From assembly GCF_007748035.1 (NCBI RefSeq), contig NZ_CP036278.1:2852001-2916000 (forward strand): DNA of 64,000 bases, in the 5' to 3' direction. Under the pieces are notes generated by a model. It made no database searches. It worked only from the letters and a program-made list of their open reading frames with translations, and was not told the DNA's origin. This DNA is from Aeoliella mucimassa. Lineage in GTDB: Bacteria > Planctomycetota > Planctomycetia > Pirellulales > Lacipirellulaceae. The translations under genes were made by a program, and so were the position numbers. Below, piece by piece: positions 45,440 through 63,589 of the stretch (position 1 is the stretch's first letter; the number at the start of each line of letters is the position of its first letter).

Positions 45440-47698
45440 CTAGGGTTGTGGGGAGAAATCTTGGGCTTCATCCGGCCCAGGGGAAGCATAGTGGGGATCC
45501 TTCGCTACGACGACAGGCACGCCTTGGTCGTCGAGATGAATATCCATCGGTACGATGGTGACCCCTTGTTGGTTAATCGTCTGAGCGGTCTCACTCAGAT
45601 CGCGACTAGCGATGTCCTTGGTCTCAAGCGGTGGAATGTTGCCGTTGTAGAATGCGGTACACCACCAGCGTCCCTGCTTGTCTTTGAACGGCGTGCCATG
45701 GCCCAGGAACCGCCCGGCAAACTGCCGCGGCCCGTAAGGCCCCTCGATCTTGTCGGCTACTGCGTAGTACAGGTTGTAGCTCCCCTTACGCATCTGCCCC
45801 GTCGACCAGCCGGTGCCGAACAGAATGTACTTGTCGCCGAGCTTGTACATCAGGCAACCTTCGTGTCCCATCTTGGCGGTATCGCCGGTCGGTCCGATCG
45901 CAATCGGCTCTCGCGTAAAGCCCGAGAAATCGTCGTTCAACGGGGCGATCATCGTGGCTCCCCAGATCATCCACCAGGTGCCATCGTCGTCTTTAAACAG
46001 CGAGGGATCATGGCGACGCCCGATCTTCGGTCCCATGGGATTCGACCACGGGCCTTTAATATCCTCGCCTTGGGTGAACGACAGGTTTGCTCCATTCACC
46101 GGCGAGGGACTCGTATGCACCAACGCCCAGCGACCATCCACGTAATGCAACTCGGGCGCCCATAGACGCCATTGCGACTGGGGAACGTTGGCAAAACGTT
46201 TGGGGCGAGCCTTCTTCCAGATGCCATCTTCCAGCGTGAAGGGGGTATCGAGAGATTGCCAGTGAATTAGGTCGGGACTTTGCCAAACCTGGGCCTTCCA
46301 GCCAACAATGCTTCCATCGCCCAAACCCGTGTTGTAGGGATCGGTCTTCTGCGCGGGGTCATCTGGCAGCGGAGTGGTGCCCGTGAGCACGTACATACCC
46401 GACGGCGACAGCGTGATGAATGGATCGCGAATCCACCCTGCTTTCACAAACAACGCCCGATCGTGACTCTTCAGCCCCGCGGCAATATCGTCCGGCGGCA
46501 ACGCCGCGGCGGTTTTCACGTGCTGAGGATTATTGCCCTGGTAGTCGGTGGCCAAGTCGCTGATTAAGCGAGTCTCGGCTTCGCGATAGGGACGCCCATC
46601 GGGGTGGAACACGTCGTGGAACCAGAGCTTTGGCTCCGCTTCGTATTTGCGTCGCAGCGAGTCTTGGGGATAGATCGTCTGCGTTTTGCCACTCACCAAA
46701 CCCCAGTTGTACGCGCCGATCTTGTGCTCTTTGAACTGCGGTAGCAGCCCTTGAAAGGTCGAACCGTTGGTACGTGCCATGTACTCGGTGCACATCAGTG
46801 GTCGGTCGCAGTGCTGCACCATTTGCTCGATAATCGGCCGAGCATCTTCCGCATTGTGATAGGTATGGAACGTGATGATGTCCGACTGCGATAGCGATAG
46901 CGCGTCGATGGCGTCGGGATTCGTGAACCAGCGAGGATTCCCCCACACGCCTGCGGTGAGCGGCTGCGATGGATTCACTTCACGCGCCCAGGCAAAGGTC
47001 TTTTTCAGTAGCTCGAAAGTTCGCTCGTGCTTAACACGGGGCTCCAGATCGCGAATCGAAGTGCCTGGCCACTTTCCCTGGTTCGCGTTGTCAGGTTCGT
47101 TAAACAGATCCCACACCAACACTCGCGGATCGTCTTTGAAACGGGAAAGGACTCCTTGCACGTAGTCTTGGAGTTCGTCTTGACGCGCGGAGTCGAGCAG
47201 AATCTCCTTGCCTGGCGACTGCAGCCATCCCGAGTTATGCACTCGCGGTTGGGGGGCTGGTTGCGGCCCCGCTTTGGGATTGGGAAGCCAGACTCCGTCG
47301 AACAACACGAACATCGTGCGGATGCCATGACGGTCGGCGATCTGCAGATACTGATCGATGCGGTCGCAGAATCCATCGGGGTCTTCGCGCCAGGCGATAT
47401 CGTGCAGGAACACTCGCATGGAGTTCATGCCGATATCGGCGGCCCACCCGAGTTCGCGATCGATGGTCTCAGGATCGAACGTATCGGCCTGCCACATCTC
47501 GAGTTGATTGATCGCCGAGGAGGGGGTGAAGTTCGCCCCTACCGGCCATGGCTGAGTGGCGTACCACTGGTTCGCCCGCTCCACCGACCACCGCCCTGCG
47601 GTTGGAGCATCGTCCGCAGTGGCCTGACACGACGCCACCGCGAGTACCACTAACACACCGATGGAAACAACTGCTGAATATTCGCGTTGGAAAAGCAT
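45440..47698 (-). CDS. Exported two-enzyme glycosidase: GH5-like TIM barrel + GH43-like propeller
   Basis: A 752-residue bifunctional protein. Signal peptide 1-27. Residues about 40-400 form a TIM barrel with acid/base Glu201 ('VLVWDLFNEPDNAN') and nucleophile Glu305 ('PLMCTEYMARTNG'), as in clan A families GH5/GH2. Residues about 410-745 form a five-blade propeller of GH43 type: base Asp in 'AGWIRDPFITLSPSG', Asp in 'GRRHDPSLFKDDDGTW', acid Glu in 'GHEGCLMYKLGDKY'. Substrate is unknown; arabinose- or galactose-bearing polymer is plausible. I chose ATG 47698 because it starts the signal peptide; the frame extends to 47782. It lies between the FecR/LamG gene and the sulfatase. Confidence 0.83.
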   Translation of the reverse strand: MLFQREYSAVVSIGVLVVLAVASCQATADDAPTAGRWSVERANQWYATQPWPVGANFTPSSAINQLEMWQADTFDPETIDRELGWAADIGMNSMRVFLHDIAWREDPDGFCDRIDQYLQIADRHGIRTMFVLFDGVWLPNPKAGPQPAPQPRVHNSGWLQSPGKEILLDSARQDELQDYVQGVLSRFKDDPRVLVWDLFNEPDNANQGKWPGTSIRDLEPRVKHERTFELLKKTFAWAREVNPSQPLTAGVWGNPRWFTNPDAIDALSLSQSDIITFHTYHNAEDARPIIEQMVQHCDRPLMCTEYMARTNGSTFQGLLPQFKEHKIGAYNWGLVSGKTQTIYPQDSLRRKYEAEPKLWFHDVFHPDGRPYREAETRLISDLATDYQGNNPQHVKTAAALPPDDIAAGLKSHDRALFVKAGWIRDPFITLSPSGMYVLTGTTPLPDDPAQKTDPYNTGLGDGSIVGWKAQVWQSPDLIHWQSLDTPFTLEDGIWKKARPKRFANVPQSQWRLWAPELHYVDGRWALVHTSPSPVNGANLSFTQGEDIKGPWSNPMGPKIGRRHDPSLFKDDDGTWWMIWGATMIAPLNDDFSGFTREPIAIGPTGDTAKMGHEGCLMYKLGDKYILFGTGWSTGQMRKGSYNLYYAVADKIEGPYGPRQFAGRFLGHGTPFKDKQGRWWCTAFYNGNIPPLETKDIASRDLSETAQTINQQGVTIVPMDIHLDDQGVPVVVAKDPHYASPGPDEAQDFSPQP

Positions 47699-47787
47699 AG
47701 ATCTAGTTTTCGCGAAAAGTAAGCTGGCAAACACATTGGCTGGGGCGCCGGGAATACCGCCGCGCCCAGTTTCTGAAGTCAAAGTCG

Positions 47788-49479
47788 CTAGCGTTTATCG
47801 ACAGCAATGTCGAATCGCTTGCAAAGGTAAGCGGAGATCGTAGTGACTTCCTCATCGGTGAGCGCCCGGTTAAACAACAATAGCTCGCCGATATCGCCTC
47901 GGAAGATCCCCTGACCAGTTGAAAGAATGGGGTGTCGACCGAGTATTTTCCGGGAGGTAATGGCAATTGGCTCCCGCGCGGCCGACTCGCTACGCTTGCG
48001 GCCATTCAAGTAAAGCGTCATCTTCTCGGCCGCTAAGCTATACCGGAAACAAATCACCTGCGGCGCGGCGATCGGCATGCGGTCGAGCACCTCGACTGCC
48101 CCTTTGTATATTTCGGTGCGTCCATCGCTGAACCCCGAGAACACCTCGCCACACACGGCGAAGCGCCCGTCGTCGTCGCGATCGCGAAGACAGATTTCAA
48201 ACACCGAGGGACTCACCAATCCGCCGAACGGAGGAACCACTCGTTGCGGCGGCCCATTGTAATTCAAGATCTGCTGGAAGGCGGGTTTGATTTCGTTGAG
48301 CGAGCAGACCACAAATGCGGTTTGTTCGTCGGTGGTATGCAGCGGCGGGGTCACCAAGAACGTGCCCCCTTCGCCAAATCGCACCGCTGGGTGTCCGTGG
48401 ATGGCATCGGCCACCAACAGTGGTTGATGTTCGGCCGAAGTCTGTAAAGCATCTTCTGGAGTGTTGTTTCCGCGAACCATGAGGTCGCGCCACTGCGAGA
48501 CTCGATTTTGCTCGTCGACCTCCACCATGCGATCTGCGGCCAGCCATAGCGTAAGATTCTTGCGCACCTGCATGTCAGGTGCGTCGCTATCTAGCAGTTG
48601 AGGACGATTGCGCCAGTCGAACTTCGCCTCGTTGGCTTCGAACTCCTGCAGTGTGACACCACCGATGGCAACGCTACAGGCCTGATCGGCTTTGAGCTTC
48701 AACGGCTTGCCTTGGAAGGTTCCTCCCGCGTTCACTGCTTGAAAGGCTACCTCGCCTTTGAACACATGGACCTCGGAGCCTCCCGCGTGGTCAACTGCTA
48801 CACCGAACTCGGTGCCTAGGTCGAGCACGATACCGCTCGGCGTGCCGACCTTGAATCCATAGGTGGCTTCGACCGATACGTTACCAAGCGACAACGAGAA
48901 TGAATTGGAATCACTGATCTCCAACGTACAAGGGCCCTGGGCGATCACTCGGGCACCATCGTCGAAGATAAGTTCGGCCACACCCTGGTTCAAGGCGACC
49001 ACATCCCCTTGATGCAGCAGATCGCCATTGACTAATGGATCGGCTTGCCACTCGCATTGGTCCGTTCGTCCCACGTATGCAGATACGAGTGTGGGAACCA
49101 CAGCCGCATGGGCTGGCTCCTTGCTGCCGACCATCCCGCCTGGGATGCCAGCCACGTTCGAGAAATCGGGCTGCAACCATCTTAGAACACCGATGGTGCT
49201 GACCACGGCAATCGATGCTGCCAGCAGCCATCCCATCCAGGGAGCACGGGATCGGGAATCGCGTTTTGGCAGTGTCACCGGAGCCACGACTGGCGGTTCG
49301 GCTTCGCGGCGGGTAAACGTAAAATCTCGATCTTTCAGGTCGCTGGAAACCAACAGCAGCTCGGCGAACTCCTGAAGCTCGCCTTCGTCGGCCAGCAATT
49401 TTTCTTCCAACTGCGCGCGCTCGTCGGCTGAGAGCTCGCCGTTCAGGTACTTCTCGAGTAATTGGTGTTTTGATTGCAT
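47788..49479 (-). CDS. FecR-domain anti-sigma-type membrane protein with LamG-like domain
   Basis: A 563-residue regulator. The N-terminus (1-75) is a cytoplasmic anti-sigma segment ('EKYLNGELSADERAQLEEKL'), a membrane helix lies at about 82-102 ('WMGWLLAASIAVVSTIGVLR'), and a periplasmic FecR domain spans about 150-270 ('GDVVALNQGVAELIFDDGAR', 'GTPSGIVLDLGTEFGVAVDH'). The C-terminal half is a concanavalin/LamG-like domain ('LTLWLAADRM', 'GDIGELLLFNRALTDEE') that may bind polysaccharide and signal to the sigma factor. Starts three bases after the sigma gene. Confidence 0.83.
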   Translation of the reverse strand: MQSKHQLLEKYLNGELSADERAQLEEKLLADEGELQEFAELLLVSSDLKDRDFTFTRREAEPPVVAPVTLPKRDSRSRAPWMGWLLAASIAVVSTIGVLRWLQPDFSNVAGIPGGMVGSKEPAHAAVVPTLVSAYVGRTDQCEWQADPLVNGDLLHQGDVVALNQGVAELIFDDGARVIAQGPCTLEISDSNSFSLSLGNVSVEATYGFKVGTPSGIVLDLGTEFGVAVDHAGGSEVHVFKGEVAFQAVNAGGTFQGKPLKLKADQACSVAIGGVTLQEFEANEAKFDWRNRPQLLDSDAPDMQVRKNLTLWLAADRMVEVDEQNRVSQWRDLMVRGNNTPEDALQTSAEHQPLLVADAIHGHPAVRFGEGGTFLVTPPLHTTDEQTAFVVCSLNEIKPAFQQILNYNGPPQRVVPPFGGLVSPSVFEICLRDRDDDGRFAVCGEVFSGFSDGRTEIYKGAVEVLDRMPIAAPQVICFRYSLAAEKMTLYLNGRKRSESAAREPIAITSRKILGRHPILSTGQGIFRGDIGELLLFNRALTDEEVTTISAYLCKRFDIAVDKR

Positions 49480-49482
49480 GAC

Positions 49483-50010
49483 TTACGAACTCTGTCCCTG
49501 GCCCAGTCGCCTGCGAATGCATTCCTTGAGATTCTCTCGCGCTCGGTGTAACAAAACGCCTACCGACGATTTGGTGATGCCGATTTCTTCGGCAATTTCT
49601 GCTTGCGAGAGTTCATCGTGATAAAACAGTTGAATCGCCACCTTCTGATTTGATTTCAAATGTTCGACGCATTGATCGAGTGCCTCGCGGCGAGCCGGAA
49701 TCTGGGGCAGCAACTGTTCGTAAGCGGTGGCCAATCCCTCCACGAGCTCAGAACTGAACACCCCACGGTCGCTTGATTGCTTGCGATAGTACCGCAGCAA
49801 CTGCCGACGTGTGACACCGAACACCCAGCTAAGAAAGGGACGTTCGGCATCGTATCGATCCGCACTTTTGACGACAGCGTGGCCAATCTCTTGAACCACA
49901 TCTTCTACATCGTGTCGATTTCGAATTTCAGCCCGCACAAAAGCAACAACCGCCGGCAATGCAGCCGTCCACATTTGGGCAAGCTCTTCCGCCGTTAGTT
50001 GCTTTTCCAC
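49483..50010 (-). CDS. ECF sigma factor, Rhodopirellula/Verrucomicrobium type
   Basis: A 175-residue ECF sigma. Region 2 is seen in 'AEIRNRHDVEDVVQEIGHAV' and 'AERPFLSWVFGVTRRQLLRY'; region 4 in 'LFYHDELSQAEIAEEIGITK' and 'SSVGVLLHRARENLKECIRR'. This is the sub-type named after Rhodopirellula/Verrucomicrobium, usually paired with a FecR/LamG anti-sigma as here. GTG 50010 is chosen, with GAGG seven bases upstream. It likely controls its own operon (FecR, GH5/GH43, sulfatase). Confidence 0.9.
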   Translation of the reverse strand: MEKQLTAEELAQMWTAALPAVVAFVRAEIRNRHDVEDVVQEIGHAVVKSADRYDAERPFLSWVFGVTRRQLLRYYRKQSSDRGVFSSELVEGLATAYEQLLPQIPARREALDQCVEHLKSNQKVAIQLFYHDELSQAEIAEEIGITKSSVGVLLHRARENLKECIRRRLGQGQSS

Positions 50011-50501
50011 ATGCAGTCCTCACCTCCGCTTATCTAACCCCACCTTAAGGGCTCTGGAGGCTTCTTATTATAGGAAACCCCGAACAGCTTTGCTGCGGGC
50101 CTCTTGCCGCCTCAGGCTTTCGCTACCCGCCTGCTAACCAGCGTCCCAGTGCAGGAGGAGGATGTTCGTTATTGGGTATTTAACAAAACTCGTCTGGAAG
50201 CTTACATAAAAGCGAAATAAATCACGTTTTTTGCCCGCTGCCCTTAACCTGGTGGGAAAAGTCAGTTTTTGGCTACTTTTCTGTAAGCTGCGCGGTTCAC
50301 GGTGGTAACTGCATGATGTTCGCCCGGTTGTAGGAAGCCAGGCGATCGCAACTCGTCACAACTAGTCCTATCAGACATTGGCACCTTCGGTGGTTGGCAC
50401 AGCACAGCTTGGCAGACCTCGCCTCCACGACCGCAATGCGGCTTCACCGCGTGCGGTTATGCCCAGCGATCTCCTTTTCCGTGGTTAGGAAGCACGTAAA
50501 C
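50011..50501. other. Divergent promoter region
   Basis: About 490 bases between the ECF sigma gene (minus) and the DUF1559 gene (plus). It is A+T-richer near 50160-50260. No RNA gene, repeat or reliable open frame is visible. TTAGGA at about 50485 is the probable ribosome site for the DUF1559 gene. Confidence 0.35.
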
Positions 50502-51578
50502 ATGAACAGGTTAGTACGAAGAGGCTTCACACTCGTGGAACTTCTAGTGGTCATTGCGATCATTGGAATCCTGGTTGCCTTGCTGTTGCCCGCAGTGCAA
50601 GCAGCACGCGAAGCGGCGCGTCGGAGTCAATGCACCAACAACATTAAGCAGCAGATGCTTGGTGTAATGAACTACGAGTCGACGCGCGGTGAGTTGCCCG
50701 CCGGCATGGAGATTCATTCGCCGCTCGAAGTGCAGGCCGGCTTCGCCGCGGCCAACAGCACCTGGGGGATTGAGATATTATCGTTCATTGAAGCCTCGAA
50801 CCTGGGAGACTTGTTCGACTACACGTTGCCGATTAGCGATCCCGTGAACCTGCACTTGATCGACAATCCTATCGGGTTGTTTGTCTGCCCCTCCGACCCG
50901 GGGCCGGATGACTATGCTAACACTTCCTTCAATAGCGCAGCCGAAATCACTTCGGTGGCCGACGTCAAACCAGCCCGCGCTTCGTACGTTGGCATTGCAG
51001 GACAAGACTTCGATGGCAACTACTGGAGCCGCCCGATCCACGTGATGGATGGCGGGGCCGGCTCGGTGCCGACAGCGGATGCGTCGAACATGAAAAATGC
51101 TGCGAAGTGGGCCCGATTCAAGATTCGCAAAGGGGCCCTGCCCTGCGTGACCGAGCCGGTTGGCAAAGCCCACCGAGTGAAGCTCCGTCAGGTGACCGAT
51201 GGCACCAGTAGCACGGTTGCCATCGCCGAATACCATACGCAAACTCTGTACGGTGGCTTCCGTCCCCCCTCCTGGGGCGACTGGCGGGCCTACTCGAGCA
51301 TGTCGGATACCACCTACGTGGACGAACGCCGGAGCGTGCCGGTGGCATCGGCCAAACACCCCTACATCTTCGGCCTGCCCGACTTCGAAGCTTGCGTGAC
51401 TGCCAGTGGTCTTAATCCAGTTTCCTGCGAACGGGCGGTCGCCAGCTTGCATAGCGGTGGCGTCGTGCAGGTTGGACTGCTCGACGGAAGTGTTCGAACG
51501 CTCAACAACGATATCGATCCAGTGATCTGGGGCGCCGCTGGCACCATCAGTGGCGGGGAGCTGGTCGATGAATTGTAA
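50502..51578 (+). CDS. DUF1559 protein with prepilin-type N-terminus
   Basis: A 358-residue member of the same family as the protein at 42920, with the invariant leader '[20 protein letters not shown]' and '[20 protein letters not shown]'. The end motif is 'ASLHSGGVVQVGLLDGSVRT'. It lies alone with a lipoprotein that overlaps its 3' end, a pairing common in planctomycetes. The true start is ATG 50502; the longer frame from 50394 adds random sequence. Confidence 0.92.
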   Translation: MNRLVRRGFTLVELLVVIAIIGILVALLLPAVQAAREAARRSQCTNNIKQQMLGVMNYESTRGELPAGMEIHSPLEVQAGFAAANSTWGIEILSFIEASNLGDLFDYTLPISDPVNLHLIDNPIGLFVCPSDPGPDDYANTSFNSAAEITSVADVKPARASYVGIAGQDFDGNYWSRPIHVMDGGAGSVPTADASNMKNAAKWARFKIRKGALPCVTEPVGKAHRVKLRQVTDGTSSTVAIAEYHTQTLYGGFRPPSWGDWRAYSSMSDTTYVDERRSVPVASAKHPYIFGLPDFEACVTASGLNPVSCERAVASLHSGGVVQVGLLDGSVRTLNNDIDPVIWGAAGTISGGELVDEL

Positions 51579-52047
51579 CCCCCACAGCAAGGACGTGCTT
51601 CGCGCGGCCTTCTGCTGGTTGATAACAGGCTATTGCGCGATGCTGGTTGGGTGTGGTTCGTCCGGCTGGCAATACGCGGAGGTCTCGGGTCAAGTGAAGC
51701 TCGATGGCCAACCTCTTGCCAATGCGGTGGTGGAGTTCGCCATCCTCACTCCTCCTCCTGAGGGAACCGAGGGAGATCGCTTGCCAGTAGCAAGCGGCCA
51801 AACCAACGAGCAAGGCGAGTTCCACCTCGAAACTCTCACTCCCGAGAACGACAAGATCAACGGCGCGGTCGTTGGCAACCATCGCGTGACGATTACCAGC
51901 AAGATAGTCGAACGGAACGAATTCGAAGGCGACAAGATACTGCGAAAGGAATTACTCCCCCCCAAATACAACCAAAACAGCGAACTTACTTTCAATGTGC
52001 CTACAGGCGGCACCGCTGATTGCGATTTCGAGCTGTCGACCAAGTGA
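51568..52047 (+). CDS. Small lipoprotein with carboxypeptidase-regulatory-like fold
   Basis: A 159-residue protein whose signal ends in the lipobox 'AMLVGC', giving a lipid-anchored Cys. The mature part has 'EVSGQVKLDGQPLANAVVEF' and 'TNEQGEFHLETL', the transthyretin/carboxypeptidase-regulatory-like beta-sandwich found next to DUF1559 genes. It overlaps the DUF1559 gene by 11 bases, and GGAG eight bases upstream supports ATG 51568. Structural or binding role assumed. Confidence 0.75.
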   Translation: MNCNPHSKDVLRAAFCWLITGYCAMLVGCGSSGWQYAEVSGQVKLDGQPLANAVVEFAILTPPPEGTEGDRLPVASGQTNEQGEFHLETLTPENDKINGAVVGNHRVTITSKIVERNEFEGDKILRKELLPPKYNQNSELTFNVPTGGTADCDFELSTK

Positions 52048-52153
52048 CCACTCACAAGGCTTCGACGTACGAATTGCAGGCGGCAACTTTTCCCTACGAG
52101 CACACCGATCAGCAGATGGTTTCTCATCGCACCATGAAAGGACGATATCAGCA

Positions 52154-55051
52154 ATGCTAGTGCACCATCTATTCCGTCGATTCTTACTGTTGACCCTACC
52201 CTTCCTCAGTCTTCCATCCTTGGCCCAGGCAGACAATTTGTCGAATCTCAGCGACTTTGCGACTTCACTGGTCGCGTTCGGCGGCCCTGCTGATATCGCC
52301 GGCGAAAGCGATTTCGGCGCCAACGGTCGGCAGCTAGCCGACGAATTCAATGGCCTCAACGGATTCGACGCTGGCTGGACTATGAATACTACGTTCACTC
52401 CAGTTGCAGCCGACTTGGCTACCGGCGAAACGCGACTGCTCATGGAAATCGGCGGTACCAGCAATGGCACGGGGCTATGGCTCCTCGATGGCGTCCCTAC
52501 GCTCGCCCTTAAAACCGGCGCCGGATTGCCCAGCCCAATCTCAAGCGTCGCCAGCGACGTAAGCCTGGTCGACAATGCGGCGGCCATCTTTAGCAGCTAC
52601 GGTTCTCTGTCCGCGGGCACGTCGTATTCGATTGCCGCGACCTGGAATGCGAACGACACTTTCACTTTGGCTGTACAAGACAATTCGACCCAACAAGGCG
52701 TAGTTCAATCGACGGTCGTCGATGGCACCAGCAGCAGCTACAACTGGTACGGCAATAGCACCTACAACGTAGGCCGCTTGGTTGGCGACCCAGGTAGCTA
52801 CGGAGGACTGAGCGGAACCGAAGGAACCCCCTTCACAGCGGTCGATGCCGTGAGCATGGATGGAGTCAGCGATTTTTCGAATGGCACCTTCAATGGCTTT
52901 GAAACGTTGTTTTGGAACGAACCATCCACGCTGTCGGTTGGTTCGAACCTGGCGGTCCTTACCGCTACGATCGATCTCGAACAAGGCGACATTACCATCT
53001 CCAATCCCACGAGTTCGTCGGTCACGATCGATTCGGCGACCCTCATCGGTGGCCAAGGTGGCTTCGACGATGGCAACGGTGCGGTACAACAACTTGTACT
53101 TTCGGGTGGCAACCTGGTGACCATCGCCGCGGGGAGTTCGGCCGTGTTGCCGGGCGTCAGTTGGGCGCCGAGTCCCTTCATCGACGCGGGCATCGCCTTG
53201 GAGGTAAGTGGAGCAACGACTAATACCATTGTGAATTACACGGGTTCCACTCTACTGTTTGGCGACTACGACGGAAGCGGTGTCGTAGACGCTGGCGATT
53301 GGCCCACGCTGCTGGCCTCGATGAACACGAGCGTCGCCGACCTCGATGGTATTGGGCGCTACATGGCAGGAGACCTGACTGGCGATGGACAAGTTGATCG
53401 CAACGATTTCCGACTCCTCAAAGAGCTGGCCTCTGGATCGGCGGCTACTAGTGGATCGGCCGATGCAGCCAACGTACCCGAGCCGGCTACCTGGGGTCTT
53501 ATCGCAGTGGGTATCACCATGTGTCTCTGCACCTATCGTCGTAAATCGGCTGTTTTGGCAACCGCCTGCGTCGCTCTGCTGGCAAGCACCAGCACAACCG
53601 CGATGGCGGCAGACATTTACATGGTGAGCAACACCGGCGAAATCCGCACCTTCGATGGCGTCGGCGGCACCAGCGGTTCCGTCGACCAAGTCGGCAATTT
53701 TGCCGGTGGCACTCTGGTAAACACGATTGCCGAGTACGGAACCTACCAGGGCTTCACTTCACTACCCAATGGTACCGTTTATGGAGTGAATAGCGCCGGT
53801 GGAGTCGACAGCTGGCCAACTCTAGCTGACTTTACCGCCAACACGAACCTTACCACGGTTTCCACCGGCGATCCGTATGGATCCCTGGCAACAGAGTCGC
53901 CTCGCTCGGGCATCCATGGTTTTTCCTTCGATGGCAATACCGGAGGACTCTACGTGGTTCTGGAGGGGCCGGATGAGAACGAGGGGGATCTCAAGCAATA
54001 CTCCACGCTGAAAAACTTCGTCGAGAATAATGGCACAATCTATACCCCGAACGGTTACGCCGGCAACATCATGCTGATGTACTACCCCGACGAAGATGCT
54101 CGCTTCACAACCGGCCTGCCAAACGCCGACGCAGGCCCGGGCTCCAACTACTTCCATATCACTGGTGGCGGGCAATTCGAAGGTTGGGAAGGTACTCTAA
54201 CCCAGTCCGGTTACGGCATGTACGGCGTCGGTGCGACTCCTGGTGGTGATGGCGGCGGTGGCAATCGTTCGTATCAACTTCCAGGCTTCGGTAACGAAGT
54301 CATCGGCAGCTTTTCCATCGTTCCAGATACGGAAGAGATGAAACTGCTCGTCGATACTTCGACCGGTGTTGTGAGCCTACAGCGTGCCGCTGCTGGCGAT
54401 CGCACCATCGATTTCTTACGAGTCAGTAGCCCTGGCAGTGGTTTACTCGGCAGCGGTTATCTTGGCTTAGGTGCGAACGATGAGTTCCCCGCAGGCGATG
54501 GCCTGGGAGGCGAAGGTTGGGACCTGGCACCGAGCAACGAAGGCAACATCAGCGATAAACGAGAGTACTTTGCCTTTAACAACGATGGCACGCTGGGTAA
54601 CTCCACCATCAGCAACAGCGGAGATTCGATCCCCTTGGGCTTGTTCTACGACACCGAGCAGGACTTGCAAGACTTAGTCCTCTACTACGATGTCGTCGAC
54701 CCGACCACTGGCGAGTTTATCTCGCAGTCAATTATCGGAGGAGTCTACGTCGACTATGTCGAGTCCACCGGACTTCCTGGCGACTATAACAGCGATGGCT
54801 CCGTGGATCTGGGCGACTACACTGTCTGGCGCGACAATCTCGGAGCTGATGGAAGCACCCTGGCCAATCGCAGCGTTGCCCTCAATGGATCCGAGATCGG
54901 AACGATCGACTACATGGTGTGGAAAGCCAACTTCGGCGCCAGCAGCGGCTCGCTGGCCTCGCTCGACGGTACAGCGGTGCCCGAACCTACCAGCGGCCTC
55001 GCTCTGTTGGGTGCAATTGTTTTGGCCGCCTTGGGATATCGCCGAACCTAA
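52154..55051 (+). CDS. Double PEP-CTERM protein: two exported modules in one frame
   Basis: A 965-residue frame that looks like two complete exported proteins end to end. Module 1 has a signal peptide (1-26, 'FLLLTLPFLSLPSLAQAD'), a LamG-like beta domain, a dockerin-like pair ('GDYDGSGVVDAGDWPTLLAS', '[19 protein letters not shown]') and a PEP-CTERM tail ('VPEPATWGLIAVG' then 'CTYRRKS'). With no stop, the frame then enters a second signal peptide ('AVLATACVALLASTSTTAMA'), a beta-propeller-like body, a second dockerin pair ('[20 protein letters not shown]') and a second tail ('VPEPTSGLALLGAIVLAALG', 'YRRT'). ATG 53519, inside the first tail, could start module 2 alone (510 residues). ATG 52154 is the module 1 start. 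Confidence 0.75.
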   Translation: MLVHHLFRRFLLLTLPFLSLPSLAQADNLSNLSDFATSLVAFGGPADIAGESDFGANGRQLADEFNGLNGFDAGWTMNTTFTPVAADLATGETRLLMEIGGTSNGTGLWLLDGVPTLALKTGAGLPSPISSVASDVSLVDNAAAIFSSYGSLSAGTSYSIAATWNANDTFTLAVQDNSTQQGVVQSTVVDGTSSSYNWYGNSTYNVGRLVGDPGSYGGLSGTEGTPFTAVDAVSMDGVSDFSNGTFNGFETLFWNEPSTLSVGSNLAVLTATIDLEQGDITISNPTSSSVTIDSATLIGGQGGFDDGNGAVQQLVLSGGNLVTIAAGSSAVLPGVSWAPSPFIDAGIALEVSGATTNTIVNYTGSTLLFGDYDGSGVVDAGDWPTLLASMNTSVADLDGIGRYMAGDLTGDGQVDRNDFRLLKELASGSAATSGSADAANVPEPATWGLIAVGITMCLCTYRRKSAVLATACVALLASTSTTAMAADIYMVSNTGEIRTFDGVGGTSGSVDQVGNFAGGTLVNTIAEYGTYQGFTSLPNGTVYGVNSAGGVDSWPTLADFTANTNLTTVSTGDPYGSLATESPRSGIHGFSFDGNTGGLYVVLEGPDENEGDLKQYSTLKNFVENNGTIYTPNGYAGNIMLMYYPDEDARFTTGLPNADAGPGSNYFHITGGGQFEGWEGTLTQSGYGMYGVGATPGGDGGGGNRSYQLPGFGNEVIGSFSIVPDTEEMKLLVDTSTGVVSLQRAAAGDRTIDFLRVSSPGSGLLGSGYLGLGANDEFPAGDGLGGEGWDLAPSNEGNISDKREYFAFNNDGTLGNSTISNSGDSIPLGLFYDTEQDLQDLVLYYDVVDPTTGEFISQSIIGGVYVDYVESTGLPGDYNSDGSVDLGDYTVWRDNLGADGSTLANRSVALNGSEIGTIDYMVWKANFGASSGSLASLDGTAVPEPTSGLALLGAIVLAALGYRRT

Positions 55052-55099
55052 CAATTGCGAATTTGAGCGATAACTTACGACGGGCAGCCGTAAGTCGAG

Positions 55100-55134
55100 G
55101 CACCTCCGAAACCTCTCTGTTTCGGAGGTGCTTT
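55100..55134 (+). terminator. Rho-independent terminator
   Basis: A 13-bp perfect stem (GCACCTCCGAAAC / GTTTCGGAGGTGC) with a 6-base loop is followed by TTTGTAT. It lies 49 bases after the double PEP-CTERM gene. Confidence 0.85.
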
Positions 55135-55216
55135 GTATCATTTGTGTGCAGTACAGTCTAACTTCATGAGAGACAAGAGCTCAACGGAGACACCGCCAGC
55201 GGTGAGCAAAGCTACT

Positions 55217-57004
55217 ATGTTACGCGAATCCAACCACCGCCGTACGACCCGCCTGTTGGCGATGGCGTTGCTCTCCTGTGTCATGGGTGAATTCAACCAA
55301 CCATGCTGGGGGCAGATTCTGGGAGCCAACTTCAATGAACGTCCGAAAGACGTAAACACCTCGCTGTTTGCGGCCAGCGAAAACACCTGGTCACGTGGAT
55401 TCTACGACGTGCTTGCCATGCGCGGCATCACCTCTCTGGAAACCAACGAGAATGTGCTGGGCCTCCAACGTGCAGCCGACGCGGGCCAGCAAGTGCTGGT
55501 GTCGTTCAAGTGGAACTTCAAAGGTTTCGACCGCAACGTACCTGCTCCTGGTTCCGACGACGAACTCGCACTGTTTCAGCGGGCTGTCGAAACGCTGGAG
55601 GCCATCGATCGCCCTATCAACGCGATCGTGCTGGGGAACGAGCCGATGTGGGAAACGCATGATTCCGATCTCTCGTTTTCCGGTGGAGTAGTCCCCTACG
55701 TCCAGTTCACGGAGCGACTACTGGACTACGTACAAACCGAATATGGTTCGCTTCAAACAGAAGAACCTCGCTACTTCCTCGGATCCCTCAATCGACTCGA
55801 TCAGACCTCGAACCAAAACAGGGATGTCGTGCAGGAACTGTTCCGCGTGGCTCGCGATAATCCGGCCATTTCCGGCATGGACCTGCATATTCACTTCGGC
55901 ACCACGGCCGAAGCCCGCGGTATGGCCCAGTTCGCGCGGCAAACGTTGGGAGCGGAAAAGGATCTGCTGGTCACCGAGTTCTCTCCCGTCTGGCGCTACA
56001 AGGATCATCTGAACGACGCGATCGGGGCAACCGCCGCCGGCTCGGCCTTCGCCAGTCAGTATGGCTACGCTTCGTCACTGGAGGTTGATGAGTACTTGAA
56101 AAACGCATTTGCGAATCAGGTGAGTCGGCAGGAGTGGACCGACTTCATCACGTCGCAACCTTGGTTTAACACCAATCATCTAAGCGACATGCATGGCTTA
56201 TTCGAGGAGTTTGGCGTATCGATCGCAACACTTGGCTACGCCCAACCTTTGAGCATGCGGGGGCTCGATCCCACAAAACCCAACTACAGTCCATTTCACA
56301 TTAACTGGCTTTACATCAGCGCCCTGGTCGAAGGCACCACGCTCGAAGCTTATAACGAGCTTTACATGGAAGACTGGCTGCACGAGCAACGTTTTCTAGC
56401 CGATCTCGATGACGACTCGCAAATTACGCTCGCCGACTACGACACCATCCGTTCATCGCTACATCAAGACGTCGCGAACCTGTCTTACAATGAGCTTCTG
56501 AAGTTGGGTGACCTGAACCTCGATCGGTCTGTCGATTATCTGGATCTTCAGCGTTTCTTCGACTCGTATGCATCAGTAAATGGCGTACGACTTGGCGACC
56601 TCAATGGCGACAGCATCGTCGATGTAACCGATTGGCCGTTAATGTTGGCGAATATGAACACCAGCCTAGTCGCTCAGGGCATCGACGAGTCGCTCTGGCA
56701 ATCAATGGGCGACATCAACCGGTCGGGATGGGTCGACCGCAACGACTTCCGACTATTCAAGAATGCCTACTTGGCAGCTGGTAACCGTCTGGCCTCGCTG
56801 GAAGCCGGCGACAGCGAAATAGCAGCACCAGAACCAACTTGCTGCAGCCTGACAGTAGCTGCCTGTGTATGGTTGGGCGGCCGGCACTGGTTCCAATACA
56901 GCAAGCGAACAGCGAGCAAAACGAATTCTACCACGACCTACGGGTCGAACGACTCGCACTCGCTGACTGGACGGATTCGAGTTTGGCTAAGTCGCAGCCG
57001 CTAG
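55217..57004 (+). CDS. TIM-barrel glycosidase-like PEP-CTERM protein with dockerin repeats
   Basis: A 595-residue exported protein. Signal segment 1-33. The body (about 35-400) has a glycosidase-like barrel pattern with '[15 protein letters not shown]' (Asn-Glu at the acid/base place) and '[16 protein letters not shown]' (Glu at the nucleophile place), typical of clan A enzymes, but I cannot name a GH family. Then two dockerin-like pairs ('[20 protein letters not shown]', '[20 protein letters not shown]', '[20 protein letters not shown]') and a PEP-CTERM-like end ('[19 protein letters not shown]') with an unusually long basic tail. Its stop shares a CTAG with the convergent kinase. ATG 55217 chosen. 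Confidence 0.7.
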
Positions 57005-59017
57005 CATTCGGCCAAATCGGCCGTCGCGACGCTCAGTTCGTGGGCAAAGCTCGCCCGATCGTTGCCAGCTTCATCGTCAGGTTCTATCGGCAAGCAAACC
57101 GTGAAAGTCGTCCCCTCTCCTTCGGTCGATTCCAGATGCACTTGACCTCCGTGCATCGCGACAATCACGTTGTGGGTAATCGAGAGCCCCTGCCCCGTTC
57201 CCTGGCCAACCGCCTTGGTCGTAAAGAAGGGATCGAATACCTTTTGACGAATCGGCTCGGGAATACCACACCCGTTGTCTTTTACTGACACTTCGACTCC
57301 ATCCTCAGTCAAGGAACTGCGGACCTCGATCTTTCCGACACCATTCTCTCCATAGCGATCGACGATCGCATCGGACGCATTCACGATCAGGTTTAACAGT
57401 ACCTGGTTCAGTTCGGAAGGATACGCGGGAATCTCTGGCAGCGAGTCGTCCAAGTTCAGGTCGATCTCGGCGTTGTACTTCCAACGATTTCGACTAATCG
57501 TCATCGTACTACGAATCGCTTCGTTGATATTCACCATCACCCGGTCTTTGTTCCCAGGATGCGAGAAGCTCTTCATCGCTTTGATGATGTTAACGGTACG
57601 CTGAATACCCTCGCGTGATTCATCAATGGCCTCGGCAAACTGCGAACGCACCAAGTTGAAGTCGCACGTTTCTATCATCTCTTCGATTTCTTGCTTCCGT
57701 TGCGACCAACTCTTGGGAGTCTCTTCGGTAAGCAGTTCGTTATAGCGATCGATCACCGTACACAAGCCACCTGCTGATTTCTCCAGGAACTCAATGTTGT
57801 CGGCAACAAACTGCATCGGGGTATTAATTTCGTGGGCAATTCCGGCGGCTAGCTGTCCAATCGACTCGAGCTTCTGCGATTGAAGCAATTGCCGTTCCAG
57901 CGTTTTGTACTCCGTCACGTCACGCATGGTCACCACACCACCCCGATGACCATTGGCAACCAGCGGTGCTGCGTTGACTGACAACATTTTATCGCCCGAC
58001 TTGCTACGCAGCAGTACTTCTTCGTTGACTACCACGTTACCAGCGATCGCTTTATTGACAGCCAATTCGCTCGTTTCGACAGGTGTTTCGCCGTCGAGAT
58101 GGCAAATCTGTAGTGTCGACACACAGCTCTCCAAGGTGTTGCCTACTTCCATTGTCACCCCGAGAATCTTCTCCGCTGCTGGATTCGAGCAGAGCAAATG
58201 CTTCGAGTCGTCGAAAGCGAGAATGCCATCCCCCACACTCGACATGACTGCGTCGAGGAGCGATTTCTGCTCCTGGGTTTCCTGAAGCAACTGATCTCGG
58301 TGCACCGCGGCCTCGCGTTGCTCGGTTACATCAGAGTAGACACCGACCATGCCAACCACGTTGCCATCCTGATCGTAGAAGGGAGCCTTGCTGGTCCAAA
58401 CAATATGTTCCTTCCCATCACTCGAGGTATGCGTCTCTTCGTGGTTGAGAATCTCGAATCCGAGTTCCATCACTTGCTGGTCACAGAGTCGATAGTGCAG
58501 TGCTTCGTCGGTAGTCCAAGGCATCTCAAAGTCGGTGAGACCCTTGATCTCGTCCGAACTCTCCACGCCTGCCATGCGAGCGAACAGGGCATTGCACCCG
58601 AGGTAAACCGACTCGCGGTCTTTCCAGAAGATGGCAAGCGGTGCGCTGTCGACAATGGTCTGCAGCATCCGGCGTTCGTAGGCGAGTTCATCGTTTCGCG
58701 ACTTCAGCTCCTCGGCCAGCCGCAGCTGTTCCTTCTCCGATATCTTTCGACAGGTGATGTCTTCCTTCACTGCAATAAAATGCGTGATCTTGCCAAGTTC
58801 GTTCACCAGGGGAGCAATCGTCTGCTGTTCCCAATAGAGCTCTCCAGAACGTTTGCGATTCAGCAACTCGCCGGACCAGTTTTGCCCACTATTGATCTTG
58901 CTCCATAGATCTTCGTAGACGCTATCGGGCGTTTCGCCCGACTTGAGTAGGCGAGACGTATTTCCCAATGCTTCCTGAGCCGAGTAGCCAGTCGTGCGGG
59001 TGAAATGGGGATTCACA

Positions 59018-59026
59018 TATTCCATC
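59018..59026. repeat. 9-bp target-site duplication, left copy
   Basis: TATTCCATC directly left of the IS and again directly right of it at 60062-60070. A 9-bp duplication is the known habit of the IS903 group. Confidence 0.93.
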
Positions 59027-60061
59027 GGCCTTGTTGAACAATTAGTCACAAACCTCCGTAAAAACTAACGTGGAATGGAACCACGTACCTTTTTTACGGA
59101 GATCGAACATGGCTACGAAAGAAAAACGAACCTACAAAGTCACGAACTGGAAGGAGTATAACAAGTCGCTCATCGAGCGTGGAAACATCACTATTTGGTT
59201 TAGCGACGAGGCGTTGGAGAACTGGGAACATCCTAACGACCAGACAAAAGTCGGTCGCCCTTTTGTCTTCAGCGATACGGCGATCGAGTGCTTGCTGACG
59301 ATTCGCGAACTGCTGAAACTTCCCTATCGGCAGACTGAGGGATTCGGCCGCTCGCTGGTGGCGATGTTGGGCGTCGAGGCAGCGATTCCCAATTATTCTT
59401 CGCTCGCCAAGCGAGCCAGCAAGCTGAATGTTTCGCTCGATATCGCTAACAAGAGGGGCGACATCGATATCGTGGTGGATAGCACCGGCATGAAAGTGTT
59501 TGGCGAGGGCGAATGGAAGATGCGGACGCATGGCAAGTCGAAGCGGCGGACATGGCGGAAGCTGCATTTGTCGGTGAATCCTGACACCCGCGAGATTGTG
59601 GCGGAGATTTTGACCGAGAACAGTTGCCACGATGCCGATGCGGTTCCCGAAATGCTGGAGCAGGTGGAGCAGCCCGTAAAAAAGTTTCACGGCGACGGTA
59701 GTTACGACAAGTGGAAGGTTTATGAAGGGCTGGAATCCGAAGGCATTGAGCCGGTGATTCCGCCGCAGCACAACGCCAAGATCAAACAACATGGCAACTC
59801 TGCGGAGGAGCCTTTGCCCCGGGACGAGGCAATTCGTCAGATTCGACGCAAGGGGCGTAGGAGTTGGAAAGAGGAAGTGGGCTATCATCGTAGAAGCTTG
59901 GCGGAAACGACCATGTACCGAGTGAAACAAAGCTTTGGGAGCCATCTCAAAAACCGAGTATTCGAAAACCAACAAACGGAAGCCCGCTTGCGCTGTAAAA
60001 TCATCAATCAATTCACCCAACTCGGGCTTCCACAGTTCGAGTGGAGTTAGTCAACAAGGCC
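59027..60061 (+). mobile_element. IS5-family (IS903-group) insertion sequence, copy 2
   Basis: 1035 bp, same length and ends as copy 1 at 8573-9607, with the same transposase. The ends are GGCCTTGTTGA / TCAACAAGGCC, and TATTCCATC is duplicated on both sides. It sits in the first PAS domain of the sensor kinase gene. The clean duplication and matching copy imply a recent insertion. Confidence 0.95.
59109..60050 (+). CDS. IS903-group transposase (copy 2)
   Basis: The same 313-residue DDE transposase as at 8655-9596; translation shows no difference. Catalytic Asp ('VVDSTGMK'), Asp ('HGDGSYD') and Glu ('SLAETTMYRVK') are present, so the element is probably active. Start ATG 59109 as in copy 1. 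Confidence 0.93.
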   Translation: MATKEKRTYKVTNWKEYNKSLIERGNITIWFSDEALENWEHPNDQTKVGRPFVFSDTAIECLLTIRELLKLPYRQTEGFGRSLVAMLGVEAAIPNYSSLAKRASKLNVSLDIANKRGDIDIVVDSTGMKVFGEGEWKMRTHGKSKRRTWRKLHLSVNPDTREIVAEILTENSCHDADAVPEMLEQVEQPVKKFHGDGSYDKWKVYEGLESEGIEPVIPPQHNAKIKQHGNSAEEPLPRDEAIRQIRRKGRRSWKEEVGYHRRSLAETTMYRVKQSFGSHLKNRVFENQQTEARLRCKIINQFTQLGLPQFEWS

Positions 60062-60070
60062 TATTCCATC
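60062..60070. repeat. 9-bp target-site duplication, right copy
   Basis: Second TATTCCATC; see the left copy at 59018-59026. Confidence 0.93.
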
Positions 60071-60309
60071 TCTCCTTTTGCATTCGTAATGACAATGGAG
60101 AGCGGACAATGCTCGACCGCCCGAGTCAGTTTATGCAAATCTCTTTCGACCTCGTGAAGCTCTCGACGCTCAAGTTCCAGCTGTTGTTGCAGGCTTTCAA
60201 CTTCCTCGCTACGTGCCTCTAGCTCGACATGCAGATTGCGTAGGTGAATACCGATTCCCGCAATCAATATCAGAGCACAAATGGCAATAGCAATAACAAC
60301 CACTAGCAA

Positions 60310-60877
60310 CTAACTCCTAAGCATTGCGAATAGGCCCAGTGCGAACGAGTCGAGACCCGGCACTACTTAGCTGTTGACCTCACCTGCCCACGTCACGAAG
60401 AGTGATCGACTGACTCAGCCTGCTCGGAAAGGGATTGGTTTATGTTTGGTTAAGCCAGTTGCAGCTTATTCCCCACCGAAATAACAACACACCTGCCCTT
60501 TGGAGCAACACGATGGCACTCCTACTTTCACTTTTCAAATATGGAGTAAAGAAGAGTTGCAGGAGACCGTATTTGGCTATCCAGGGCTTCAATTGCGGTG
60601 AAATGTTACCCTGCAATCCAAATAATCGTTAGCGAGCCCTCCTGAAAAAGTCCACCCGGTAGAGCGTATTTGCAACAATACTGCATTGCGACAGCTTGCG
60701 GTTTGACTTTTAGGTTTGTCTGATTTTTCAGACAGCGAATCGAAAAGACCGAGTGCCTATTTTTGCAGGAATCGGGCCTGCAATTGCGGACAATGAGCCT
60801 CTGCCGTTCGCTTACAATGGTATCGCACCCGCAGCCACATGCGGGTCGATAGCTTGTCTCGATCATAGGATGCCGCA
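60310..60877. other. Intergenic region upstream of the kinase and the rhamnosidase
   Basis: About 570 bases, A+T-richer than average, holding promoters for both divergent genes. AGGAG (near 60314-60318 on the minus strand) fits the kinase start, and AGGA at about 60866 the rhamnosidase start. Small frames have no coding features. I see no RNA gene or repeat. Confidence 0.35.
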
Positions 60878-63589
60878 ATGCTCGAAATCTCCAGGTGGTT
60901 CACTCGCTTTGTCTTGCTAATTGCTGCTACCACGGGCTGGCTAGCGTCAACTCCCAACGTAGCCTTAAGTCAGACGCCAACTGCGACGTCATCAGTTGCG
61001 TGGCCCGCGGCTACCACGACCTCGCGTCCTTGGACCCGCTGGTGGTGGCATGGCTCGGCCGTGGACGATGCCAACCTCACGCGACTGCTCGATACCTACC
61101 ACGAGGCGGGGCTCGGAGGGGTCGAAATCACTTGCATCTACGGAGTGCAGAACAACGACTCGCGGAATCTGGTCTATCGCTCCGACGCCTGGGTCGATGC
61201 AGTGCAACACGTGCTTCGCGAGGCAAATCGCTTAGGCATGGGGGTCGATCTCCCCGCCGGCTCTGGCTGGCGGATGGGAGGACCGAACATCACGATGGAC
61301 CTGGCAAACAGCCGTGTGATCGTCGAGAGCGACCAAGCGGTCGGCGGCAAGACCTTCGTCAAGCGTTTCGCGAAGTCGACTCCCCAGTCGGCCCTCGCCC
61401 TTAATGCTGCCGGCGAACAGGTCGACCTTACCGAAAAGATTGCCGATGGCAAGCTTACCTGGCAGGTGCCCGAAGGTGACTGGACCGTCTACAGCCTGGC
61501 CTATCGATGGTCGGGCGATCGGGTAAAGCGTCCTGATCCAGGCGGGGAGGGTATCAACATCAATCCATACTGGAAGCATTCCGTCAACGCGTTCCTTACC
61601 GACTTTGATAGCACGCTCAATCGCCTGCCAGGTGTGCGGGCGCAGTTTCATGATTCGTTCGAGTACCAGGGCGACTGGCAACCGGAGTTCCTCGATGCGT
61701 TTGCCAAGCGACGCGGCTTTCGCCTGGAAGCGCATTTGCCCGCGCTGGCCGGTGAGGGTGACCGCGAGCTGATCGCTCGTGTGAAAAGTGATTACCGTGA
61801 GACGATCTCCGACCTGCTGCTCGAAGACTTCATCGGCACCTGGGTCGCCTGGTCGCACCAACACGATCAGCTCGCCCGCAATCAGTCGCATGGTTCCCCA
61901 GCGAACTGGCTCGACCTGTACGCCGCTTGCGACATTCCCGAAACCGAGAGCTTCGGACGGGTCGATGGCGGCGATGCCGAGAAGCTGGTGTTCAAGTTCG
62001 CTTCGTCGGCGGCCAATGTCACCGGCAAATCGCTCGCTTCGTCGGAAACGGCCACTTGGCTCGGCGAGCACTTCACAGTTGGCCTTAGCGACATCCAGCA
62101 AGTCGTCGACAAGCAAATGCTCGGCGGCATCAACCACATCCTCTACCACGGCACCGCCTATTCGCCCGACGACGCGTCCTGGCCTGGCTGGCTGTTCTAC
62201 GCCTCGACTCAGCTGAACCCGCAGAATCCGATCTGGCACGACTTTCCAGCACTCAACCAGTATGTCACGCGTTGCCAGTCGATGCTCCAGGCGTCGCAGC
62301 CCGATAACGAGGTGCTGCTGTACTGGCCGATCTACGACCTCTGGCACGACGCGGATGGCATGCGTCGCGACATCACTGTGCACAACTCGGAGCACTGGCT
62401 GCGCGGGCAGCCGATTGGTCATGCGGCTCGCTGGCTGGATGACCAAGGCGTGATGTTCGACTACGTCTCCGACCGACAGCTGGCCAAGTGCTCGGCGACC
62501 GATCACAAGACCATCACCACCGCAGGGGGCGAGTACAAGTTGATCGTCATCCCCGAGGCCAAGCACCTGCCGCTGGCGACCCTCGAGCACCTGATCGACC
62601 TGGCCGAAGCCGGCGCGACCGTGGCCTTCCGGAAGCACCTGCCCGAGAGCGATTCTGGACTCGCGGGACTCACCCCCAGCCAGCCATGGAAGCAAGCCAT
62701 CGCGCAAGTCAACCAGCTTGTCAAAGAACAACGCATGATCGTCTGCGACGACCTTCAAATCGCAGCCGAACAGGCGGGGCTGACTGAGGAGTCTGGCTTA
62801 AAAACATCTGGCATCGACTTTCTCCGCAAGAAGTATCAAGGAAGCAAATGCTACTTCCTCAAAAACACCACTTCGCAGGCGATCGACCAGTGGACGACGC
62901 TTGGCTCCTCGGGCAATTCGGTCGCGATCCTTGATCCGATGACAGGCAACATTGGGCTGGCGGAGAGCAAGTCGCTCGACTCCGGCTCACTCTCGGTACG
63001 GCTGCAAATGGCCGCGGGGGGGAGCTTGTTCCTGCTGGTCTCCGACGAACCGCTCAACGCCGAACCATGGCTTTACCATCAGGTGACGGATCAGCCAGTT
63101 GCGATAAGCGGCACCTGGCAAATTGAGTTCGTCGAAGGAGGACCTTCGCTGCCAGAGTCGTTTAGTTCCCCTCAACCTGTTCCATGGACGAACGCCCCCG
63201 ACCAGTCGGCCCAATCGTTTGCCGGTACCGTGCGGTACTCTACGAGTTTCAGCACTCTCAGTAAGAAGCAGTCTCACTACTTGCTCGACCTCGGTAAGGT
63301 CGATGGTAGCGCCCGCGTGATGCTCAACGGAGAGCAAGTTGCGACGTTGATTGGTTCTCCTTATCAAGTGATGATCGACACCAAGACCGACCAGGTGAAT
63401 GAACTACAAATCGAAGTGACCGGCGTAGCCGCGAATCGCATTCGCGACCTCGATCGCCGAGGCGTCGAGTGGCGCATCTTCGAAGACATCAACGTTGTGA
63501 ATATGAACTACAAACCATTCGATGCGTCCGACTGGCCGGTGCGGCCGCTGGGCCTCAGTGGGCCGGTGACGTTGCAGCCGGTCAAATAG
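60878..63589 (+). CDS. Exported GH106-like alpha-L-rhamnosidase
   Basis: A large secreted hydrolase (903 residues) that probably frees alpha-L-rhamnose from rhamnogalacturonan. Signal peptide 1-32. The barrel opens 'RPWTRWWWHGSAVDDANLTR' and 'AGLGGVEITCIYG', followed by 'LGMGVDLPAGSGWRMGGPNI', the pattern of GH106. 'FHDSFEYQGDWQPEFLDAF' and 'SDIQQVVDKQMLGGINHILY' belong to later barrel strands with candidate catalytic Glu. A C-terminal beta-sandwich of the GH2 sugar-binding type ends the protein ('LDLGKVDGSARVMLNGEQVA'). It converges on the PL11-like gene, 18 bases away, and both act on rhamnogalacturonan-type pectin. ATG 60878. Confidence 0.85.
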   Translation: MLEISRWFTRFVLLIAATTGWLASTPNVALSQTPTATSSVAWPAATTTSRPWTRWWWHGSAVDDANLTRLLDTYHEAGLGGVEITCIYGVQNNDSRNLVYRSDAWVDAVQHVLREANRLGMGVDLPAGSGWRMGGPNITMDLANSRVIVESDQAVGGKTFVKRFAKSTPQSALALNAAGEQVDLTEKIADGKLTWQVPEGDWTVYSLAYRWSGDRVKRPDPGGEGININPYWKHSVNAFLTDFDSTLNRLPGVRAQFHDSFEYQGDWQPEFLDAFAKRRGFRLEAHLPALAGEGDRELIARVKSDYRETISDLLLEDFIGTWVAWSHQHDQLARNQSHGSPANWLDLYAACDIPETESFGRVDGGDAEKLVFKFASSAANVTGKSLASSETATWLGEHFTVGLSDIQQVVDKQMLGGINHILYHGTAYSPDDASWPGWLFYASTQLNPQNPIWHDFPALNQYVTRCQSMLQASQPDNEVLLYWPIYDLWHDADGMRRDITVHNSEHWLRGQPIGHAARWLDDQGVMFDYVSDRQLAKCSATDHKTITTAGGEYKLIVIPEAKHLPLATLEHLIDLAEAGATVAFRKHLPESDSGLAGLTPSQPWKQAIAQVNQLVKEQRMIVCDDLQIAAEQAGLTEESGLKTSGIDFLRKKYQGSKCYFLKNTTSQAIDQWTTLGSSGNSVAILDPMTGNIGLAESKSLDSGSLSVRLQMAAGGSLFLLVSDEPLNAEPWLYHQVTDQPVAISGTWQIEFVEGGPSLPESFSSPQPVPWTNAPDQSAQSFAGTVRYSTSFSTLSKKQSHYLLDLGKVDGSARVMLNGEQVATLIGSPYQVMIDTKTDQVNELQIEVTGVAANRIRDLDRRGVEWRIFEDINVVNMNYKPFDASDWPVRPLGLSGPVTLQPVK

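Follow-up and report, generated by a model that had tools for sequence, protein, structure and literature searches.

A single forward-strand reading frame at positions 52154-55051 of a 64,000-nucleotide stretch of the Aeoliella mucimassa genome (the window) appears to encode one exported polyprotein, in which a PEP-CTERM sorting tail runs directly into a second signal peptide and the resulting hairpin would be cut by exosortase and signal peptidase I. A probability of roughly three in four is assigned to this reading, with the cuts deduced from the sequence. The initial annotation had left a choice between a polyprotein and a nested independent start in the tail of the first gene; recurrence, conservation, the lack of start codons, the charge pattern and codon selection all speak for the former, and the latter does not stand as a general answer. 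In bacteria of this order, the Pirellulales, proteins of the cell surface are probably synthesized as polyproteins and cleaved at the membrane. The wider proposal, which is favoured with some reserve, is of a general secreted-polyprotein system in the Pirellulales. A genome would hold up to dozens of such frames, and each frame would encode two to at least ten complete exported proteins joined by hairpins that would be cut alternately by the two proteases, so that surface lectins, dockerin proteins and other modules would be delivered in fixed ratios. We infer the topology, both cuts and the purpose, namely that surface proteins, probably glycan-binding ones, reach the surface together and in equal amounts.

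The frame comprises 965 codons with its sole stop at the 3' end, and the claim of the initial annotation that one stop-free frame holds two exported modules was correct. The frame opens with a signal peptide, followed by module 1 and its dockerin, a PEP-CTERM tail, another signal peptide and module 2, and it closes with a further tail, so that several export units share an uninterrupted frame, as expected of a secreted polyprotein. The first tail, VPEPATWGLIAVGITMCLCTYRRK, begins at 53474 (residue 441) and has the PEP motif, hydrophobic helix and basic cluster of an exosortase substrate. It passes the NCBIfam model TIGR02595 (24.7 bits for the protein, cut-off 16) and falls just under the cut-off of PF07589 (19.9 against 20.7 bits). 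The second tail, which starts with VPEPTSG at 54977, lies outside the stretches listed by Pfam and NCBIfam and was recognized from its sequence alone; it occupies the terminal position typical of PEP-CTERM signals, whereas the first is internal, with its first arginine at residue 462 of 965. The arginine cluster of the first tail (RRKSAVL from 53537) is also the n-region of the second signal peptide, a sharing that had been noted at the outset and is borne out, and TTAMAAD follows from 53594. The dockerin of module 1 matches Dockerin_1 (PF00404) over residues 370-423 (25.5 bits, cut-off 22.9), and that of module 2, with no listed Pfam stretch, was seen by eye and by homology. The whole junction matches a profile of such junctions over its full length (E 1.9e-15, the profile having been built with this same junction included).

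In the proposed mechanism, module 1 would be exported by Sec via its own signal peptide until the PEP-CTERM helix of tail 1 halts in the membrane, leaving the arginine cluster in the cytoplasm. That cluster would serve as the n-region of the second signal peptide, so that the chain loops back into the membrane, forming a short hairpin, and module 2 is exported in turn. An exosortase cut at the PEP motif would free or transfer module 1, and a signal peptidase I cut after AMA would give module 2 a free N-terminus. The hairpin, about 45 residues long, would be discarded, and the last tail would be processed like an ordinary PEP-CTERM tail.

The same arrangement recurs throughout the genome (6,608,792 bases; the G+C content of the window is 57.2%). 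At least 137 matches to PF07589 were found when the best 150 of 314 candidates were scored, many of them in common open frames. Stretches were then selected around multi-tail frames and other tail genes, and in 43 of them plus the window a rule recognized 142 tails, namely 100 terminal, 41 internal and 1 other; because of this selection, the internal share is not that of a random sample. The 41 internal tails sit in 26 frames that together hold 65 tails. Four neighbouring tail pairs lay outside good coverage, of which three were added and one is within stretch L013, so nearly all pairs are covered. A signal-peptide-like segment was present within 60 residues after every internal tail (41/41, with alanine at -1 in 40; 38 stretches plus the window). 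The same rule found one in 9 of 90 terminal tails read past their stop (several of these signal peptides belong to a separate gene that follows), and in 48 of 1,339 pieces of the same frames. Since 41 internal tails recur and all 41 are followed by such a segment, a chance origin of the junction is excluded.

The junctions also share a set of properties. In 72 junction linkers there are 282 lysines and arginines but 6 aspartates and glutamates, each linker having a net charge of at least +2, and the distance from the PEP motif to the cleavage site is 35-72 residues, with a median of 43.5. This pattern of charge, length and motif fits two membrane helices joined by a cytoplasmic basic loop, with a protease signal at each end. 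VPEP is intact in 66 of these 72 internal tails and in 124 of 135 terminal ones. Near-duplicate junctions (15 pairs) gave a pooled ratio of nonsynonymous to synonymous differences (pN/pS) of 0.26, indicating purifying selection, although the pairs are not independent because they come from six loci only and ten are from one frame. A separate pair of tandem near-duplicate junctions, in L071 (A. mucimassa tails at 1176301 and 1177441, forward strand), gave a nonsynonymous to synonymous substitution ratio (dN/dS) of 0.50 on just nine changes. The second frame of L071 ends 81 residues past the first basic residue of its tail, and its short last module may be a decaying copy.

The spread of these junctions was followed with a profile, A1, built from 22 junctions and searched within the phylum Planctomycetota; in the A. 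mucimassa genome, the best 150 of 617 candidates were scored. Within the family, 28 of 43 genomes have a match with an E-value no worse than 1e-7, and 27 of these have one that is free of stops; within the order, at least 35 of 117 genomes match, some of the matches covering the tail only or containing stops. All 31 internal tails in stretches from relatives lead into a signal peptide, a set that includes genome G020, from another family, and G130 and G213, from outside the class. The same was true of 50 of 52 internal tails in ten further genomes from eight families, and with the family of G020 this makes nine families of the order, besides that of A. mucimassa, that show the pattern. Across the phylum 7 of 392 genomes match, A. 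mucimassa included, and two of the other six matches are full-length and stop-free; this yield is a weak lower bound, because only the best 16 candidates per genome were scored. A scan of named contigs with the window protein as the query gave no match, while four related fused proteins found 15 loci in the same contigs, 13 of them with an internal tail. At these loci, which belong to Aeoliella straminimaris, Botrimarina colliarenosi and metagenome-assembled genomes, 14 of 15 internal tails run into a signal peptide.

Frames with many more tails were also found. The largest, in G456, has 10 tails in 2,531 residues with its 5' end still open, and others have 8 and 7. Pfam independently counts 10 tails in the G456 frame, together with LamG and F5/8-type domains. 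In G472 (L134:2594-9874, reverse strand), it counts 7 tails and six FGE-sulfatase (formylglycine-generating enzyme-like) stretches, and several junctions of that frame are near-identical copies of one another.

Separate homologues with clean stops in close relatives had been named as evidence that would speak against a true fusion, and here the outcome is divided. The closest relative among the matches listed, in G014 (another genus), is itself fused in one frame of 1,003 residues, with module 1 50% identical and the second half of module 2 48% identical. The first half of its module 2 is swapped for another domain, which by eye resembles an adjoining separate PEP-CTERM gene. On the other side, among the matches listed, the first half of module 2 occurs alone in single frames 270-311 residues long, found in three other genomes and at one more place in A. 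mucimassa, and separate neighbouring tail genes are found elsewhere, so that the units of the proposed polyprotein do exist as separate proteins. Four related two-module frames, from three genomes and two genera, align throughout the second module and less well in the first. In one module family, with 27 members, 21 are fused and 6 stand as separate genes; of the fused ones, 20 come last in their frame, and both members tested have a LamG domain. From these occurrences of a family and of a half-module in both states, it follows that the same kinds of module exist fused and unfused.

The rival explanation that fares best is that the hairpin is never cut, and that one continuous chain uses its tail and signal-peptide helices to anchor a large multi-domain surface protein in the membrane. 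Such a frame and hairpin would look identical in sequence, and the hairpin is a plausible anchor. However, an anchor needs neither a VPEP motif, which is kept internally about as often as terminally, nor the alanine found at -1 in 40 of 41 cases (a residue that the detector favours), and an uncut anchor is unlikely in frames with 7 or 9 internal tails. An uncut chain is therefore regarded as rather improbable. Several points also count against the polyprotein reading. Both cuts are known here only by deduction, and the signal peptides were called by a simple rule favouring alanine at -1 and not by a trained predictor. When all sets are added, with one junction counted twice, 3 of 139 internal tails have no signal peptide within 60 residues. 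ATG codons within 12 codons of the hydrophobic core of internal signal peptides (15/65) are slightly above the background of 1,199 in 8,598 windows (P about 0.03), and the Shine-Dalgarno-like score of the internal ATGs is 3.36, compared with 2.41 for random and 4.08 for authentic ones (n=14). Finally, 26 of 134 linkers contain an ATG and 81 contain an ATG, GTG or TTG.

These last figures bear on a second alternative, in which module 2 is an independent gene nested in the tail of module 1, perhaps translationally coupled to it, and the missing stop is incidental. An in-frame ATG does exist at 53519, but it does not fall exactly at the start of module 2, as had been stated initially; it lies within the helix of tail 1 (residue 456), six codons 5' of RRK, and a start there would place tail-helix residues ahead of the arginine cluster. 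No Shine-Dalgarno-like run was seen by eye in the 25 bases 5' of it, and no ATG, GTG or TTG occurs in the linker of the frame, taken as running from three codons before the first arginine up to the hydrophobic core. Linkers likewise free of these codons were counted at 53 of 134 distinct junctions, a figure that includes the present one (52 of 133 without it). Some A. mucimassa junctions look more permissive, as 24 of 41 have an ATG within 25 codons 5' of the core followed by a basic residue, and internal ATGs do exceed random ones a little in their Shine-Dalgarno-like matches. Yet the 15 of 65 internal signal peptides with a nearby ATG contrast with 85 of 110 authentic first ones (Fisher P 2e-12), the latter having been chosen for a start codon, which favours their count.

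The reading frame itself provides a further comparison, since two in three nested genes would be expected out of frame. A loose search of the A. mucimassa stretches yielded at most 3 out-of-frame overlap candidates against 41 in-frame junctions, and two of the three have a later ATG that is possibly the true start. The third, in L068 (reverse strand, A. mucimassa 5611000-5622000), is a clean 4-base stop/start overlap of two separate tail genes and speaks for nesting. The second of these L068 genes begins like the LamG-bearing last-module family. In a stricter count, 54 pairs of separate tail-gene neighbours in A. mucimassa and relatives showed no overlap and gaps of at least 1 base, with pairs lacking a recognizable start left out and some pairs kilobases apart. 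Nested starts as a general rule are rejected by the start-codon and frame counts, though not for every junction, and this explanation is considered unlikely for the frame at 52154-55051. Because internal ATGs are above background and their Shine-Dalgarno-like scores intermediate, some single junctions might also start independently, and the protein beyond them would then be begun twice.

A third possibility is decay, in which accidental loss of a stop fused neighbouring genes and left the internal tails without function. Haft et al. 2006 (PMC1569441) describe atypically placed PEP-CTERM tails as rare, possibly non-functional and tending to vary more, and separate tail-gene neighbours are often tens to a few hundred bases apart, both of which suit such an origin. 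However, VPEP is about as well preserved in internal as in terminal tails, the fusion is kept in G014 and another two-module frame is kept in a second genus, near-duplicate junctions are under purifying selection, and one module family stands last in nearly every fused case, so that decay is largely refuted and has very little probability left. An assembly or sequencing error that removed a stop near 53545 is negligible in the face of 41 such places in A. mucimassa and many more in other assemblies, including that of the G014 relative; error and chance alike are rejected by the recurrence across the genome and its relatives.

Secreted polyproteins are familiar from viruses and, to our knowledge, rare in bacteria. 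The envelope polyproteins of viruses carry alternating stop-transfer and signal sequences, and the system proposed here would work alike, with helix hairpins between exported units and cuts by signal peptidase on the outer side. No kinship is implied, and the difference is that one of the cuts would be made by exosortase, in a bacterium. A bacterial polyprotein with an internal signal sequence is the cytochrome b/c1 product of fbcH in Bradyrhizobium, which resembles the present case in having a single frame, an internal signal peptide and two mature proteins (the last of these, here, by deduction). In contrast to fbcH, which serves one enzyme complex, there are many frames here, with up to ten tails and a PEP signal before each internal signal peptide. 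There is also a likeness to dockerin-bearing surface proteins, in that module 1 has a Dockerin_1 domain and the beta-sandwich before the dockerin of module 2 gives weak matches, cohesins among them (Z about 6), although these matches rank no higher than those to unrelated structures. With PEP-CTERM/exosortase sorting as set out in PMC1569441, the genome has in common the PEP motif, helix and arginine cluster as well as signal peptides and exosortase genes, and what differs is that in the selected sample 41 of 142 tails lie inside a frame and lead into a further signal peptide. No description of tandem PEP-CTERM polyprotein arrays was found in the accessible portions of the open-licence literature, PMC12078418 included. 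Should the cuts take place as proposed, secreted polyproteins with an alternating protease pair would be in use in many members of one bacterial order, and the junctions would be a natural substrate for a direct test of exosortase cutting. PEP-CTERM proteins would also have been miscounted, because one open frame would stand for two to ten proteins.

Both proteases that the polyprotein reading calls upon are encoded in the A. mucimassa genome. Exosortase (PF09721) is found at three places, with all three proteins passing the TIGR02602 cut-off, and a signal peptidase I is present. One exosortase (L120:1226-6448, reverse strand, A. mucimassa 1480225-1485447) is fused to a very long tetratricopeptide repeat (TPR) region in a protein of 1,740 residues, with the exosortase domain at residues 31-282 and PrsT-like TPR up to 1710. 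Exosortase also occurs in frames of similar length (1,739-1,769) in G001, G009, G014 and G020.

As for what the modules do, structure prediction was of limited help. In the AlphaFold model of module 2, confidence is confined to a beta-sandwich that precedes the dockerin (roughly residues 240-410 of the mature part), and the model of module 1 is too poor to use (mean predicted local distance difference test score 40.9). Foldseek with the beta-sandwich gave no match at E 0.001 or better. The comparison with 6kge_A (Z 6.0, root-mean-square deviation 4.1, 125 residues) is weak and tied with unrelated folds, and the cohesins among the weak matches score no higher than unrelated Ig-like folds, so the predicted model offers no firm relative in the fold search. 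Other modules in fused frames have LamG, F5/8 or FGE-sulfatase domains, and surface glycan binding appears the likeliest role.

Table 1. Features of the frame at 52154-55051 and its closest neighbours (window positions).
Feature	Position	Strand	Basis
DUF1559 protein with N-methylation motif, upstream neighbour	50394..51578	+	PF07596, PF07963
Small protein, weak carboxypeptidase-regulatory-like match (below cut-off), upstream neighbour	51550..52047	+	Profile match
Nearest in-frame upstream stop (TAG)	51905..51907	+	Sequence
Module 1 signal peptide MLVHHLFRRFLLLTLPFLSLPSLAQA	52154..52231	+	Sequence; start picked by rule, cleavage site by eye
Module 1 mature part	52232..53473	+	Sequence; G014 relative 50% identical
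Module 1 dockerin type I	53261..53422	+	Pfam PF00404
Internal PEP-CTERM tail 1 (VPEP, helix, RRK)	53474..53545	+	TIGR02595 24.7 bits; PF07589 19.9, below cut-off
In-frame ATG in tail helix; candidate nested start, judged unlikely	53519..53521	+	No Shine-Dalgarno-like run, by eye
Module 2 internal signal peptide RRKSAVLATACVALLASTSTTAMA, arginine cluster common with tail 1	53537..53608	+	Rule; profile match
Module 2 mature part: N-half family, beta-sandwich, dockerin	53609..54976	+	Homology; AlphaFold model
Terminal PEP-CTERM tail 2 VPEPTSGLALLGAIVLAALGYRRT and stop	54977..55051	+	Sequence
Separate downstream gene with signal peptide, dockerin and imperfect PEP tail	55217..57004	+	165-base gap

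The neighbourhood of the frame (45440-50010 on the reverse strand and 50394-63589 on the forward strand) encodes GH43/GH5, FecR/LamG, extracytoplasmic function (ECF)-type sigma factor, DUF1559 and GH106 rhamnosidase proteins and, judged from its gene content, looks like a sigma-controlled locus for polysaccharide use. The separate gene that follows the frame continues for about 30 extra residues after its imperfect PEP tail. A DDE transposase gene (59070-60050, forward strand) lies further downstream, between the histidine kinase gene and the GH106 gene.

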